Below, in pieces: positions 1,782-34,995 of a stretch of 37,686 bases of DNA. Numbering within the stretch: position 1 is the first letter of the stretch; every line of letters starts with the position of its first letter. The notes beneath the pieces are model-generated. The model did no database searches and was not told the DNA's origin. It was given only the letters and a program-made list of their open reading frames with translations. This DNA comes from Lacticaseibacillus parakribbianus (GTDB taxonomy: Bacteria > Bacillota > Bacilli > Lactobacillales > Lactobacillaceae). The position numbers and the translations under genes were made by a program. The stretch is from the NCBI RefSeq assembly GCF_025490915.1, contig NZ_JANQBA010000019.1, positions 1 through 37,686 of the forward strand. Direction: 5' to 3'.

Positions 1782-2255
1782 ATGATGAGTGTTCCACAGA
1801 CCAAGGAAACCCTGAACCAGCTGGTAGCAGACCTCAGCCAGATGAGCGCGGTGGTTCACCAAGTTCACTGGTACATGCGCGGCCCCGAGTTCCTGCACCT
1901 GCACCCCTTGATGGACGACTTCCGCGAGGACCTCGATGAACAGCTCGACGAAATCGCCGAGCGGCTGATCACGCTGGACGGCGAGCCGGTGTCGACGCTC
2001 GAGGAATTCGCCGACCTCACCGGCATCAAGGACGAGCACGGCACATTCGGCACCCCGACGCCGGAACGCCTGGCCATTTTGGTCGAAGGCTACCGCTACT
2101 TGGCCGACGTCTACCAGCACGGCATCGAGGTGTCCGGGGCGGAAGGCGACGACACCACCCAAGACATCTTCATCGGCTTCAAGGGCGCCACGGAAAAGCG
2201 CATCTGGATGCTGCAGGCCCAGCTGAACCAGGCCCCGCTGTTGGCGGAGGAATAG
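1782..2255 (+). CDS. dps: Dps-family ferritin-like DNA/iron-storage protein
   Basis: A 157-residue Dps protein, which forms a hollow dodecamer, oxidises Fe(II) with hydrogen peroxide and stores the iron, limiting Fenton chemistry. All inter-subunit ferroxidase ligands are present with canonical spacing: His29 in QVHWYMRGP, His41 and Asp45 in LHPLMDD, and Asp56 and Glu60 in DEIAER. There is no lysine-rich N-terminal tail, so direct DNA binding as in E. coli Dps is not evident. The start is one of two consecutive ATG codons behind AGGAGGAG. The gene stands alone on the plus strand. Its stop codon is followed at once by a copy of the structured intergenic repeat and then by a bidirectional terminator. 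Confidence 0.93.
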   Translation: MMSVPQTKETLNQLVADLSQMSAVVHQVHWYMRGPEFLHLHPLMDDFREDLDEQLDEIAERLITLDGEPVSTLEEFADLTGIKDEHGTFGTPTPERLAILVEGYRYLADVYQHGIEVSGAEGDDTTQDIFIGFKGATEKRIWMLQAQLNQAPLLAEE

Positions 2256-2390
2256 AGGGCAGAACCCGGCGCATTTAGCGGGACGGCTAGCCTAGCCGTG
2301 GCGCTTGGGCCCTGGGCTTGGGCCAAAGTGACGCGGCGTAGCTAGCCGCTCCCGCGTTGCCGGGTGGCGCCCGTTTAAAGTGCAGAGCCG
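2256..2390 (+). repeat. structured intergenic repeat, copy A
   Basis: Begins at the dps stop codon. The outer stem is ACCCGGC (2264-2270) with GCCGGGT (2359-2365). The middle stem is GCGGGACGGCTAGC (2278-2291) with GCTAGCCG plus TCCCGC (2341-2355, one bulged C). The apical stem is TTGGGCC with GGGCCAA. A partial second unit (AGAGCCGAGCGC and onward) follows to about 2470. The element is sense with respect to dps. Confidence 0.8.
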
Positions 2391-2490
2391 AGCGCTTTTA
2401 GCGAACCGGCTAGCGCGGCGCCGGCACTTGCGCGGCTTGCGCCTCAAGCACTGAGATCGCCGGGACGCGTTCGCGCCGCCGCCCCGTATC

Positions 2491-5133: not shown

Positions 5134-5210
5134 CCAGAGCGCAAGCCGGCGAACTTAGCGGGACGGGTAGCCTAGCCGCGGTGCTTGGGACCCGCACTTG
5201 AGACTAGCGA
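5134..5210 (+). repeat. structured intergenic repeat, copy B (left half only)
   Basis: Starts one base after the stop codon with ACCAGAGCG and continues TTAGCGGGACGGGTAGCCTAG and GCTTGGGACC, matching the left half of the other copies. The right half is missing; the sequence runs straight into an intrinsic terminator. Confidence 0.7.
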
Positions 5211-11749: not shown

Positions 11750-12046
11750 TTAGTCTTCGCGAACCACGATCATCTGACGCAGAATATCGCCGGAGATCTT
11801 GGCAAGACGATCGAATTCATCGACAGCCTTCGCATCGTTAGCAGTCAAGTTCACGATGTGGTAGATGCCTTCGTTGTACTTCTTGATTTCATAGGCCAGC
11901 TTACGCTTTTGCCAATCCTTGGAATCAATGATGGTGGCACCATTTTCCTTCAGAATATTGTCAAAACGTTCAACCAGTTGTGCCTTAGCTTCTTCATCCA
12001 TGTCAGGACGAATGATGTAAGTTACTTCATACTTAGTTTCAGCCAT
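11750..12046 (-). CDS. rpsF: 30S ribosomal protein S6
   Basis: A 98-residue bS6, first gene of the operon. The start [23 protein letters not shown], the central [21 protein letters not shown] and the end [21 protein letters not shown] are typical. S6 binds S18 before both enter the 30S subunit. The ATG at 12046 has AAGGAGGTG at good spacing. The leader contains a strong hairpin and may be the site where the S6:S18 complex represses its own mRNA. Confidence 0.97.
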
Positions 12047-12073
12047 TTGACGTTCACCTCCTTATGGTCTTTG

Positions 12074-12092
12074 GCCCCTAGTTCCTAGGAGC
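12074..12092 (-). promoter_or_regulatory. hairpin in rpsF leader, candidate S6:S18 autoregulatory site
   Basis: A perfect 8-bp stem (12074-12081 with 12085-12092) with a 3-nt loop lies about 30 bases before the rpsF start; CCGG lies a little upstream. S6:S18-binding leaders with a conserved CCG are known upstream of rpsF in many bacteria. The match to that fold is inferred, not checked. Confidence 0.4.
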
Positions 12093-12133
12093 AAGGAGTA
12101 AGCCGGCCCTAAGGCACATGCTCACAAATTAAA

Positions 12134-12163
12134 AGTGTACCATAAACGGCCCGGCGCCGTAAA
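12134..12163 (-). promoter_or_regulatory. promoter of the rpsF-ssb-rpsR operon
   Basis: On the minus strand TTTACG and TACACT are 18 bases apart, with TG one base before the -10 (extended -10). The start site would lie about 80 bases before rpsF. Confidence 0.6.
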
Positions 12164-12434
12164 GCTAATTCATGAAAACCCAGGCCGCCCGGATTGCCAC
12201 CGCTTCCCGGGTTCGGCTGGGTTGCATCCCAACGCCCGGTTCCGAGTGGCTCGCACCCGCCCGTAGTCCCCCGTGGCAAGCCGCTGGTGCCAACGCGCCG
12301 GCCCCACGCGTCGCCGCCCAAAAGGCGGTGACCTTGGCGACAGCCGAGGCGTCGCGCATGCTGCGGGTTTTGACGACCATCGGTTCTTCCGCCTAGGCGA
12401 CTCAGGCCCCACTTATTGATTACGCAAAACGACT
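12164..12434. other. intergenic region, no gene supported
   Basis: About 270 GC-rich bases between the rpsF promoter and the aldo/keto reductase. Several 70-80-codon frames overlap on both strands, but none has a credible ribosome site or recognisable content. Confidence 0.5.
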
Positions 12435-13406
12435 TCAGTCCCCCGCTGCGAACGCAAAATCCGCCGGGGTTAGCGTTGGCCCGGCCGCCCCCAGCGTGTC
12501 CTCCAGCTGCGCCAGGTTGCGCGGCGCGAACAGCGGCAGGCAGGCGAAGGGCTGAACCGCGAAGAAGCCGAACACCACCTGAGTGATCGTCGCACCGGTG
12601 CGGTGAGCCAGCGCCACCGCCTGCTCGGCTCGGGCGAGGTTGGCCGGCGTCGCGTAGTCGCTGCCGGCCACCGCGGCGGCGCCGCCCTTGGCGAAGTGAT
12701 GGAAAAAGCCGTTGGCCACGCCGGAGTACGGCATCGCCAAAAGCGCCGGCTGGGCCGCGTGGTAGTCGGCCAGCTTCCCGGTCAAGGCGACCAGCGTGTC
12801 GTCGCCACCCGGCGCCTTGTGGGCCACGCCGAGGTTGAACAGCGCCTCGTCGGCGACGAAGCCGCGGTAGCCGCGCGATTCACAGTAGGCCGCGGCTTCG
12901 GCGATGCGGTCGACCTGCCAGTTCGAGCAGCCGTAGTAGCGGATTTTGCCCTCGCGGCGGAAGGTCTCCATCACCTCGATCAGGGCCGCCACCGGCTGGC
13001 CGCGGTCGTCGCGGTGGTAAAAGTACAAATCGACGGCGTCGGTGTGAAGCGCCGTCAGCGACAGCTCCAGGTCGTGGCGCATGGCGGCCGCCGTCATCCG
13101 GCTGCGGTGGATGTCGGCGTCCGGCCGCTGCAGGTCCGGGTGGCCGCCCTTGGTGACCAGCACCACGTCCTGGCGCTTGCCGGAGCGCTGCAGCCAGTCG
13201 CCGACCACCCGCTCGGAGCGGCCGGTTTCGCCCGGCACCCAGTCCGAGTAGACCCGGGCGGTGTCAATCACGTTGCCGCCGAGGTCGAGGTAAGTGTCCA
13301 AAATCCGGTCGGCCGCGGCCCCGGCCCAGGTCAGCCCGGCGCTGGCGGTGCCCAGGCCGATGCTGCTCATAGTCAGTTCGGTATTGGGAATGATGATTTG
13401 CTTCAT
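12435..13406 (-). CDS. aldo/keto reductase
   Basis: A 323-residue NAD(P)H-dependent oxidoreductase with the TIM-barrel AKR fold. The catalytic tetrad is visible: Asp48 and Tyr53 in VIDTARVYSDW, Lys86 in VLVTKGGHP and His131 in DLYFYHRDD. The sequence YYGCSNW (around residue 157) is the standard strand-helix turn of the family. The substrate cannot be told from sequence; relatives reduce sugar aldehydes and other carbonyls. The start is ATG behind AGGAGG. The gene stands alone, downstream of repeat copy C. Confidence 0.9.
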   Translation of the reverse strand: MKQIIIPNTELTMSSIGLGTASAGLTWAGAAADRILDTYLDLGGNVIDTARVYSDWVPGETGRSERVVGDWLQRSGKRQDVVLVTKGGHPDLQRPDADIHRSRMTAAAMRHDLELSLTALHTDAVDLYFYHRDDRGQPVAALIEVMETFRREGKIRYYGCSNWQVDRIAEAAAYCESRGYRGFVADEALFNLGVAHKAPGGDDTLVALTGKLADYHAAQPALLAMPYSGVANGFFHHFAKGGAAAVAGSDYATPANLARAEQAVALAHRTGATITQVVFGFFAVQPFACLPLFAPRNLAQLEDTLGAAGPTLTPADFAFAAGD

Positions 13407-13513
13407 TGGCTCATCCTCCTATGCTTGCAATCGCTCAGATGATAACACATCACTCGCCGCTCGGCACGGATAGTGTCTTTGACTGGCTTAGAAGCTGATT
13501 GTGAATCTCCGGT

Positions 13514-13680
13514 CAACCCGCGCTTCTGCGCTCTGGGTTCGTCGAGCTACGAACCGCAACGCGGGAGCGGCTAGCTCCGCCGCGTCTCTTGGGACCAAGT
13601 TCGGGTCCCAAGCGCCACGGCTAGTCTACCCGTCCCGCTAAAACCGCGCTTCTGCGCTCTGGGTTCGGCTCCGCTCTGGA
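13514..13680 (-). repeat. structured intergenic repeat, copy C
   Basis: Minus-strand copy that begins right after the FemX stop codon (CCAGAGCGG). The core is 13561-13638. The apical stem is a perfect CTTGGGACC/GGTCCCAAG (13588-13596 and 13604-13612). Direct repeats of 26-27 bases, nearly identical, flank the core at 13515-13541 and 13642-13667. Confidence 0.8.
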
Positions 13681-26300: not shown

Positions 26301-26461
26301 ACCTCTGCAGGCCAGCGCCAAAGCCCGGCGCAGCCGCTCTCGTCGAGCTCCGGGCCGCAACGCGGGAACGCCTAGCTACGCCGCGCCACTCGGGCCAAGT
26401 TCGGGCCCAAGTGCCACGGCTAGGCTAGTCGTCCCGCTAAAAACGCGGCCCTCCGCTCTGG
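26300..26461 (-). repeat. structured intergenic repeat, copy D
   Basis: Starts right after the gyrB stop codon (CCAGAGCGG). The core is 26362-26437. The outer stem is GGGCCGC/GCGGCCC, the middle stem GCGGGA/TCCCGC, the apical stem CTTGGGCC/GGCCCGAG. Sense with respect to gyrB. It shares the downstream GAGCTCGACGA-type motif with copy C. Confidence 0.8.
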
Positions 26462-28800
<2,339 letters not shown>

Positions 28801-32386: not shown

Positions 32387-33730
32387 TCACCCGCGGTTTT
32401 TCAGCCGGTTCTTCAGCTCGATCACCTGCGACTTGAGGTCGGCGTCGGCCGAAATCTCCGCGGTGATTTTCTCATGGGCGTGAATGACGGTCGTGTGGTC
32501 CTTGCCGCCGAACTCCGAGCCGATTTTGGGCAGCGAGTTGTCCGTCATTTCCCGGGCCAAGTACATCGCAATCTGGCGCGGTATGACGATTTGCTTCACG
32601 CGCTTTTTCCCCTTCAGGTCCGAAATCGTGATGTGGTAGTACTTGGCGACCACGTCTTGGATGTGGTTGATTGACAGCGCCGCGTCCTTGTCGTCGATCT
32701 TGAGGCTCTTCAAGGCGTCGGCGGCCAAAGACGTGGTGATGTCGGCGTGGTTCATCGCGGCGAAGGCCTGAACCCGCACCAAGGCGCCTTCCAGCTCCCG
32801 AACGTTGGAGTCGATCTGCCCGGCGATGTAAGACAGCGTGTCGTCTGGAATCACCAGCTGCTCGGCGTTGGCCTTGTTGCGCAAAATGGCGATGCGGGTC
32901 TCTAGGTCCGGCGGCGTGACGTCGACGGACAGCCCCCACTTAAAGCGCGACACCAGCCGCTCTTCGAGCTTGGGAATCTCGTTGGGCAGGCGGTCGGAGG
33001 TCAGCACGATCTGCTTTTTGTCCTCGTACAGCGCGTTGAAGGTGTGGAAGAACTCCTCTTGCGTCTGCTCCTTGTTGCCGAGAAACTGGATGTCGTCGAC
33101 CAACAGCAGGTCGACGTTGCGGTACTCCTGGCGGAACTGCTCGGTGCCGTTGGTGCGAAGCGCGTTGATGAAGTCGTTGGTGAAGGCCTCGGAGGTGACG
33201 TACTTCACGTTGGCCTCCGGGTGGTACTGCAGCAGCTGGTGGCCGATCGCCTGCATCAGGTGGGTTTTGCCCAGCCCCACGCCGCCGTACAAAAACAGCG
33301 GGTTGTAAAGCTTGCCGGGCTCCTCGGACACCACTAAGGCCGCGGCATGCGCCATCTGGTTGCCCTTGCCGGTGACGAACGTCTCGAACGTGTACTTACT
33401 ATTGAGGTGCGTCGGCGCCTTGAAGGTCGGCACCGGATTGGTCGCCTGAGTCGGCGCGACCTCGGGTTCCGGCACCGGATTGTCGCCGATCAGCTTGATC
33501 AGCGGCTGAATCTCGAGGTTCTTGTACCCGTAGCTCCACTCCACGACCTTGGTGACGAGGTTGGCCTCCCAGTAAGACTTGTGGTAAGGCGTCGGCACCC
33601 CGATCACCAGGGTGTGACCGTTCAGGCTCAGCGGCTTGGCGGCCTCGATCCAGGTGTTGAAGCTGACCTGGACCAGGTCGTCGCGGAATTTATTTACGAG
33701 GTACGCCCATAATTCGTCTAATGATGGCAC
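32387..33730 (-). CDS. dnaA: chromosomal replication initiator protein DnaA
   Basis: A 447-residue initiator ATPase. Domain I (about 1-90) has the normal [12 protein letters not shown] start, domain II is short, the AAA+ domain has Walker A GGVGLGKT (149-156) and Walker [11 protein letters not shown], and domain IV ends with the box-recognition motif [12 protein letters not shown]. It binds DnaA boxes and opens the origin. The start is GTG at 33730 behind AAGGGGG. DnaA boxes flank it on both sides, in line with autoregulation. Confidence 0.98.
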
Positions 33731-34469: not shown

Positions 34470-34594
34470 GCAGAGGGCAGAGCCGAGCGCTTAGCGGGAC
34501 GGCTAGCGTAGTCGTGGGCTGCGGCGCTGGGCTTAGCGCCGGAGACCGCGACGCAGCTAGACGCTCCCGCGATGCTCGGCGGCGCCCGTTTAGC
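34470..34594 (+). repeat. structured intergenic repeat, copy F1 (tandem)
   Basis: Unit of 125 bp that starts GCAGAGGGCAGAGCCG. The outer stem is GCCGAGC (34482-34488) with GCTCGGC (34574-34580). The apical stem is GGCGCT (34523-34528) with AGCGCC (34535-34540), different from other copies but still paired. Confidence 0.8.
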
Positions 34595-34723
34595 GCAGAG
34601 GGCAGAGCCGCGGCGGTCTTAGCAGGACGGGTGGCCTAGCCCCGGGGGCTGGGACCTGTACTTGGCCCCAGTCACCGGGGCGTCGCCAGCCGTTCCTGCG
34701 TTGCCGCGCGGCGCCCGTTTAGC
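34595..34723 (+). repeat. structured intergenic repeat, copy F2 (tandem)
   Basis: Follows F1 head to tail and starts with the same 16 bases. The middle stem is GCAGGA with TCCTGC where other copies have GCGGGA with TCCCGC, a paired change. CCCCGG and CCGGGG form an extra helix. A partial third unit follows to about 34800. Confidence 0.8.
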
Positions 34724-34995
34724 GCAGAGCGTGGAAAGCCGCGGGTAGCGCAGCCCGGCTCCTGGGGAATTCGCGCCCCGGCTCAGCCGGCCTACGCATG
34801 ATCCGCAGCCGGGCACCTTCGCCCGTCACCTGCTAGGCAACAAAACGGCGCCAAGGCGCTAGGGTCGGGCCGCTTTTTTGCGCCAGGCGCCACTTAGGCT
34901 TGCTTGGCACTGCACATACATAGGAAATTGCCGGTTTCAGGTGCGTCGACTGACCGAGTCTTGTATACTTAAGAACAGATTGTGAGGGAGCGTTA

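Follow-up and report, generated by a model that had tools for sequence, protein, structure and literature searches.

The family of intergenic repeats described here, each about 125 nt long, is best explained, with chances that we put at roughly even, as a non-autonomous and probably mobile hairpin element of the Lactobacillaceae whose folded single strand is under selection. The repeats look like small selfish elements, and we infer their mobility from copy number, carriage by plasmids, choice of sites and polarity of the arrays. In favour of this explanation stand the covariation along the hairpin, the excess of G-T over A-C in its stems, the precision of the 5' ends, the 3' truncation of last units, the presence on plasmids and the existence of empty spacers. 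Against it weigh that the searches found no mobilising gene, no base-level insertion and no consistent target duplication, that arrays could also grow by unequal recombination, and that the 5' rule has exceptions.

The analysed window, the whole 37,686 bases of contig C11, comes from a genome of 2.82 Mb that GyrB places in Lacticaseibacillus, with L. daqingensis (94%) and L. kribbianus (93%) as its closest named relatives. It carries gyrA, gyrB, recF-like, dnaA and yidC-like genes by Pfam match, together with rpmH, assigned by reading of the letters. Seven full and several partial copies of the repeat lie between its genes (Table 1). The covariance model R1, built from these copies and therefore matching them by construction, recovers the seven full ones and finds the partial copy at 5135 weakly (14.8 bits, E 0.11); an own-genome profile searched with nhmmer returns copy B and the unit after copy A as 5' fragments. 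The preliminary description had counted at least seven copies, which stands with the seven full copies plus partial ones found here, but it had missed the full copy E0; the stems that it quoted for copies A, C, D, E, F1 and F2 are all where it had placed them. In copy E0 the stems are altered, reading CGGCCAGC/GCTGGCCG against CGGCTAGC/GCTAGCCG in the other copies.

Table 1. Full copies and fragments of the repeat in the window, with the basis of their identification and their surroundings.
Feature	Positions	Strand	Basis and surroundings
Full copy A	2253..2380	+	R1; the upstream frame ends in a TAG whose AG belongs to the copy
Second unit, 3'-truncated	2377..2448	+	nhmmer
Copy B, 3'-truncated	5136..5201	+	R1 (weak), nhmmer; begins 3 nt after a TAA stop
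Full copy C	13536..13661	-	R1; fragments of other copies on both sides, about 13509-13535 and 13664-13679
Full copy D	26337..26460	-	R1; gyrB-gyrA spacer, 2 nt past the gyrB stop
Full copy E0	28507..28629	+	R1; adjoins the gyrB Shine-Dalgarno sequence in antisense
Full copy E1	28630..28756	+	R1
5' fragment of a further unit	28757..28798	+	E0-like by letters
Full copy F1	34471..34595	+	R1; immediately past the rpmH terminator T-run
Full copy F2	34596..34724	+	R1

All seven full copies, taken with a few flanking bases, fold more stably than 200 of 200 dinucleotide shuffles (z -4.1 to -7.1). Against the same kind of shuffles, two further candidate stretches fold unremarkably (34728-34835, z -1.55; 2379-2500, z -0.15). 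The comparison with Rfam that the preliminary description had named gives no match in the window at the gathering score, and five sub-threshold matches (up to E 1) all fall outside the repeats. A sub-threshold match to AsdA, the antisense RNA of dnaA, was seen at 33209-33289 (34.7 bits, gathering score 52). The longest gyrB reading frame (26462-28693) opens with a GTG at 28693 that falls within copy E1; this GTG is not likely to be the gyrB start. The Shine-Dalgarno sequence near 28499-28506 would place the start near 28487.

Covariance models, the type of search that the preliminary description had suggested, find copies both in the rest of the genome and in its relatives. The own genome holds at least 147 copies at 74 loci, a lower bound because just 150 of the 1,792 candidates that passed a first look were scored (147 of the 150 match R1). 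Two to five copies are present at 44 of these loci, always head-to-tail (mixed orientation in 0 of 44), and spacing within loci is 118-127 nt in 68 of 73 cases. Contigs C1, C2, C3, C4, C9 and C10 contain one array locus in 837 kb, and C28 (195 kb) contains 17. With at most 35 candidates scored per genome, R1 matches 22 of 30 same-genus genomes (the own one included), 1 of 31 genomes of other Lactobacillaceae and none of 39 genomes outside the family. A better model, R2, matches 51 of 251 Lactobacillaceae genomes in 13 of 40 genera (E 1e-6, 13 candidates scored per genome). Relatives are also carried by plasmids: a copy from G027 used as query retrieved them from 14 plasmid records, with L. paracasei, L. 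rhamnosus, Pediococcus acidilactici and P. inopinatus as hosts. Window copy A as query found nothing in the plasmids, and the phage collection searched gave no match.

The fold is that of one strand, a single long hairpin with about 43 base pairs and conserved internal loops between them. Among 46 sense-strand copies of the own genome, aligned to the structure of the model, two-sided changes occur in 32 of the 43 pairs and 94.1% of cells are paired; none of 500 shuffles reaches any of five measures, and sliding the partners abolishes the signal. In 92 rows from relatives, likewise fitted to the model's structure, 25 of 43 pairs rise above the null (E <0.05), against one of 8085 column pairs outside the structure; the null consists of 100 alignments simulated along the inferred tree without pair constraint, with E-values taken from a fitted exponential tail. 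These rows derive from 104 matches, less ten (six on the opposite strand, three partial or cut ones and the true copy L171:40-165) and after merging of two duplicates. With L171:40-165 returned (93 rows), 23 of 43 pairs remain, every one of them higher than any simulated value, and aligning by sequence only, with MAFFT, retains 14 of 43; in each of these two, one of the 8085 column pairs outside the structure also covaries, and it is the same pair, 2-124, perhaps an additional outer pair. The preliminary description had proposed a fold shared among copies whose letters change; this is upheld by every full copy against its shuffles and by the covarying pairs, and the covariation that it expected in a larger alignment is strong. 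To our knowledge, RNA-grade covariation along a whole 43-pair hairpin is rare among bacterial intergenic repeats.

The stems also indicate which strand folds. In structure-fitted alignments, relatives show 349 G-T and 12 A-C cells, or 259 versus 12 once the fixed G-T pair 19-106 is set aside, and the own genome shows 160 versus 28. Since folding of the complementary strand would leave an A-C mismatch, the sense strand is the folded one, and the excess points to selection on one folded strand, in line with the earlier proposal of selection on a folded RNA or DNA structure. The mismatches are themselves conserved: positions 9-10 and 115-116 are mostly GA and GA in relatives, like tandem G-A mismatches, and all three opposing positions of two symmetrical loops are paired in merely 6 of 91 and 4 of 60 rows. 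The element is therefore an imperfect hairpin of one strand with conserved mismatches, as are the elements of REP/RAYT systems. Orientation towards the neighbouring genes makes little difference to this fold. Among 45 of 47 own-genome units (two without context excluded), those antisense to both neighbours are 94.2% paired (n=11; G-T 43, A-C 7), those sense to both 91.7% (n=20; G-T 68, A-C 11) and those in mixed context 94.2% (n=14; G-T 42, A-C 4). Pairing is thus equally good in every orientation, so the fold is maintained whatever the local transcription. This suggests selection on the element itself and not merely on mRNA.

The arrays are placed with a precision that differs between their two ends. 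Among 42 of the 43 own-genome arrays sampled, from stretches partly picked for holding copies and with genes called by a simple script instead of a gene finder, 27 have their 5' end no more than 20 nt from a called gene boundary, 20 at a stop codon in sense and seven at a start codon in antisense; none has its 3' end that close to one, the 3' ends being ragged. In the other 15 the 5' start lies more than 20 nt from any called boundary, or deeper inside one, and terminators precede some of them. In six arrays a TAG stop codon takes its last two letters from the initial AG of the element, five arrays begin 2 nt past the stop, and seven start 12-19 nt from an antisense start codon, just past its Shine-Dalgarno sequence. 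Upstream T-runs within 14 nt were seen for 5 of 43 own arrays and 20 of 75 first units of relatives, and the mirror-image A-run beyond the 3' end for 0 of 43 and 1 of 75. Letters resembling the rpmH terminator are followed by an element in G000 (the own genome), L059, L109 and L063, with differing subfamilies. Unit ends read mostly AGAGGG..CCCGTTT or CCAGRGCG..GCYCGAC, and inspection of junctions by eye revealed no consistent target duplication, a duplication of this sort being one mark of a MITE of a DDE transposon, along with terminal inverted repeats shared with an autonomous element.

The same polarity is seen within arrays. By pattern match, 13 of 108 units show 3' truncation, each of them the final unit of its array; two show 5' truncation, one beside a masked stretch, and one is short at both ends. 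Where the first and last units are full (29 arrays), 15 arrays show another 5' start beyond the last unit, and just one a 3' end ahead of the first. Units two apart are more similar (median identity 0.87, n=21) than neighbours (0.75, n=49; p 0.013), and given this period-two similarity, arrays could also grow by unequal recombination. A general alternation of two hairpin types was rejected, as 32 of 65 neighbours differ against a shuffled mean of 32.6, leaving the weaker period-two similarity.

Comparisons between plasmids show how individual copies change. L241 and L242 are 98.7 and 99.8% identical in the flanks and 77.5% in the hairpins, where six of 44 pairs changed on both sides, two on one side, and three are broken; the hairpins of L242 and of the Pediococcus plasmid L247 do not differ at all, between flanks of 98.0 and 96.9% identity. 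One and the same spacer holds two units and a remnant in pWX3, one unit in p1 and a remnant alone in pLp02. The inner stem is uninterrupted in the p1 copy and has internal loops in unit 2 of pWX3, which is a sign of template correction. Remnants alone are found in L243, L244 and L248, internally deleted copies in L245 and L246, and the operon spacer without visible remnant in L249, L250 and L251. As the empty-spacer plasmids are only about 80% identical, insertion is not observed at base resolution. Candidate recent empty sites in near-identical plasmids were rejected because remnants remain, and are read as deletions.

Some compensation can arise without selection, through template correction of near-palindromes and swaps of whole hairpins between copies, both of which can be seen between plasmids. 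If this were the main source, by template-switch correction of quasi-palindromes plus gene conversion, little selection on the fold would be needed, and both the inner stem of p1 and the divergence of the L241 and L242 elements between nearly identical flanks agree with such an origin. However, it predicts that loops disappear and that G-T and A-C are about equally frequent, contrary to the rarity of fully paired loops and to the G-T counts in both relatives and own genome, and we regard it as not very likely. A role in cis in mRNA, for example as 3'-UTR stabiliser, RNase III site or backup terminator, would suit the 20 of 42 arrays beginning near an upstream stop codon in sense and the very stable predicted folds, and it has a precedent in Yersinia, where ERIC repeats regulate adjacent genes through RNA hairpin folding according to the cited part of PMC2267715. 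Nevertheless, 12 of 43 sampled arrays are antisense to both flanking genes, with their 11 scored units equally paired, and in the copies read the hairpin has no T-run of its own, as a Rho-independent terminator would have; such a role is therefore unlikely to account for the family.

The gene searches bear on how the element could move. A REP/BIME-type element moved by a RAYT or TnpA (Y1) transposase would share much with our repeats: in the passages cited, REP, BIME and REPIN sequences with RAYT are of high copy number, extragenic and clustered, with imperfect strand-specific hairpins (PMC3733652, PMC8266576), REP ends supply TAG stop codons (PMC3733652), and single-stranded hairpins with needed mismatches follow a similar logic (PMC8266576). 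The Y1 transposase family PF01797 does have matches in 13 of 30 same-genus genomes, the copy-rich G012, G014, G015, G017, G020 and G021 among them, but gives none in G000, G001, G006, G013 and G027, which belong to the 30 and are copy-rich too. The hairpin, at about 125 nt, is also some 2.5 to 6 times as long as a REP (20-50 nt), the unit ends as read have no constant GTAG or CGTC tag at the hairpin foot, and multi-copy loci are in the same orientation only, so that this explanation is weakened to very unlikely. The Y2 transposase family of IS91-like rolling-circle elements, PF04986, was found in none of 22 genomes, and the control genomes were equally silent. A site acting as single-stranded DNA, whether a hairpin for priming or resembling a single-strand origin, for the cell or its plasmids, or a chromosome-organising site, would fit the one-strand fold, the carriage by plasmids and an excess near the origin in G000, where 48 of 71 mapped loci lie within 794 of 2223 mapped kb. 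However, G027 lacks this bias (KS p 0.33), so the excess is not treated as a shared property and an origin-proximal function common to both was rejected. A replication-strand bias was rejected as well, since fork direction shows none in G027 (22 of 52) or in G000 (32 versus 32, tallied by hand with 10 of 74 loci, on C12, C30 and C1, excluded). We consider a site of this kind most unlikely.

Bacterial class C group II introns prefer sites just past terminators, and our repeats resemble them in their terminator-adjacent sites. In contrast to such introns, the copy-bearing G000, G001 and G006 have no reverse transcriptase match; among 22 genomes, PF00078, the reverse transcriptase family that a group II intron or a retron would call for, is found in seven (G007, G013, G014, G017, G025, G029 and G049) and gives no match in these three or in G027. 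Repetitive hairpin elements of organelles (double-hairpin elements, RHE) are G+C-rich, spread between genes and show compensatory changes; our repeats are similar G+C-rich, spreading intergenic hairpins, although in a bacterial host. The ERIC, NEMIS and YPAL repeats are likewise single long stem-loops, with a size of 127 bp given for ERIC in the cited part of PMC2267715, but they occur in other phyla, whereas tandem head-to-tail arrays, polar ends and stem letters largely free to change characterise the present family. A table of PMC2267715 reports three stem-loop clusters in Lactobacillus johnsonii, and the palindromic-repeat passages of PMC3496567 concern CRISPR. Among the matches listed, no paper has a title or opening lines of an abstract that describe repeats of this kind in lactobacilli; most subscription journals lay outside this search, and an earlier description is possible.

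Under the mobile-hairpin explanation, the folded single strand, as DNA or RNA, would be the substrate of some enzyme that inserts copies. Insertion would begin at the 5' end and could continue past the element into a second unit that stays incomplete. In the intervals, template-switch correction, swapping akin to gene conversion and deletion across the hairpin would edit the copies, and this editing would accelerate compensatory change. More tentatively, and doubtful as it still is, the repeats could represent an undescribed class of mobile element of lactobacilli, propagated as a folded single strand and inserted from its 5' end, that forms arrays by overrun and needs an enzyme other than a RAYT or a reverse transcriptase. 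Its insertion sites would be the edges of genes and terminators, polar head-to-tail arrays would form as the element runs past its own end, and the enzyme would come from the host or a plasmid. The family thus amounts to a natural experiment on how hairpin pairing is kept up, by selection on the fold, by template correction or by both; its hosts are readily cultured bacteria of food and probiotics, and its features suggest an enzyme acting on folded single strands.

Other elements were observed in the same material. Different, longer nested palindromes stand right past the gyrB stop in the gyrB-gyrA spacer of L. kribbianus (L109, about 12167-12460) and past that stop in L060 (about 11948-12200), and by their letters are possibly further hairpin families. 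On contig C9 of the own genome, positions 8846-10072 of L179 give a match to a MobT-family relaxase, below the family's curated cut-off, in a stretch of lower G+C that is probably an integrative element.
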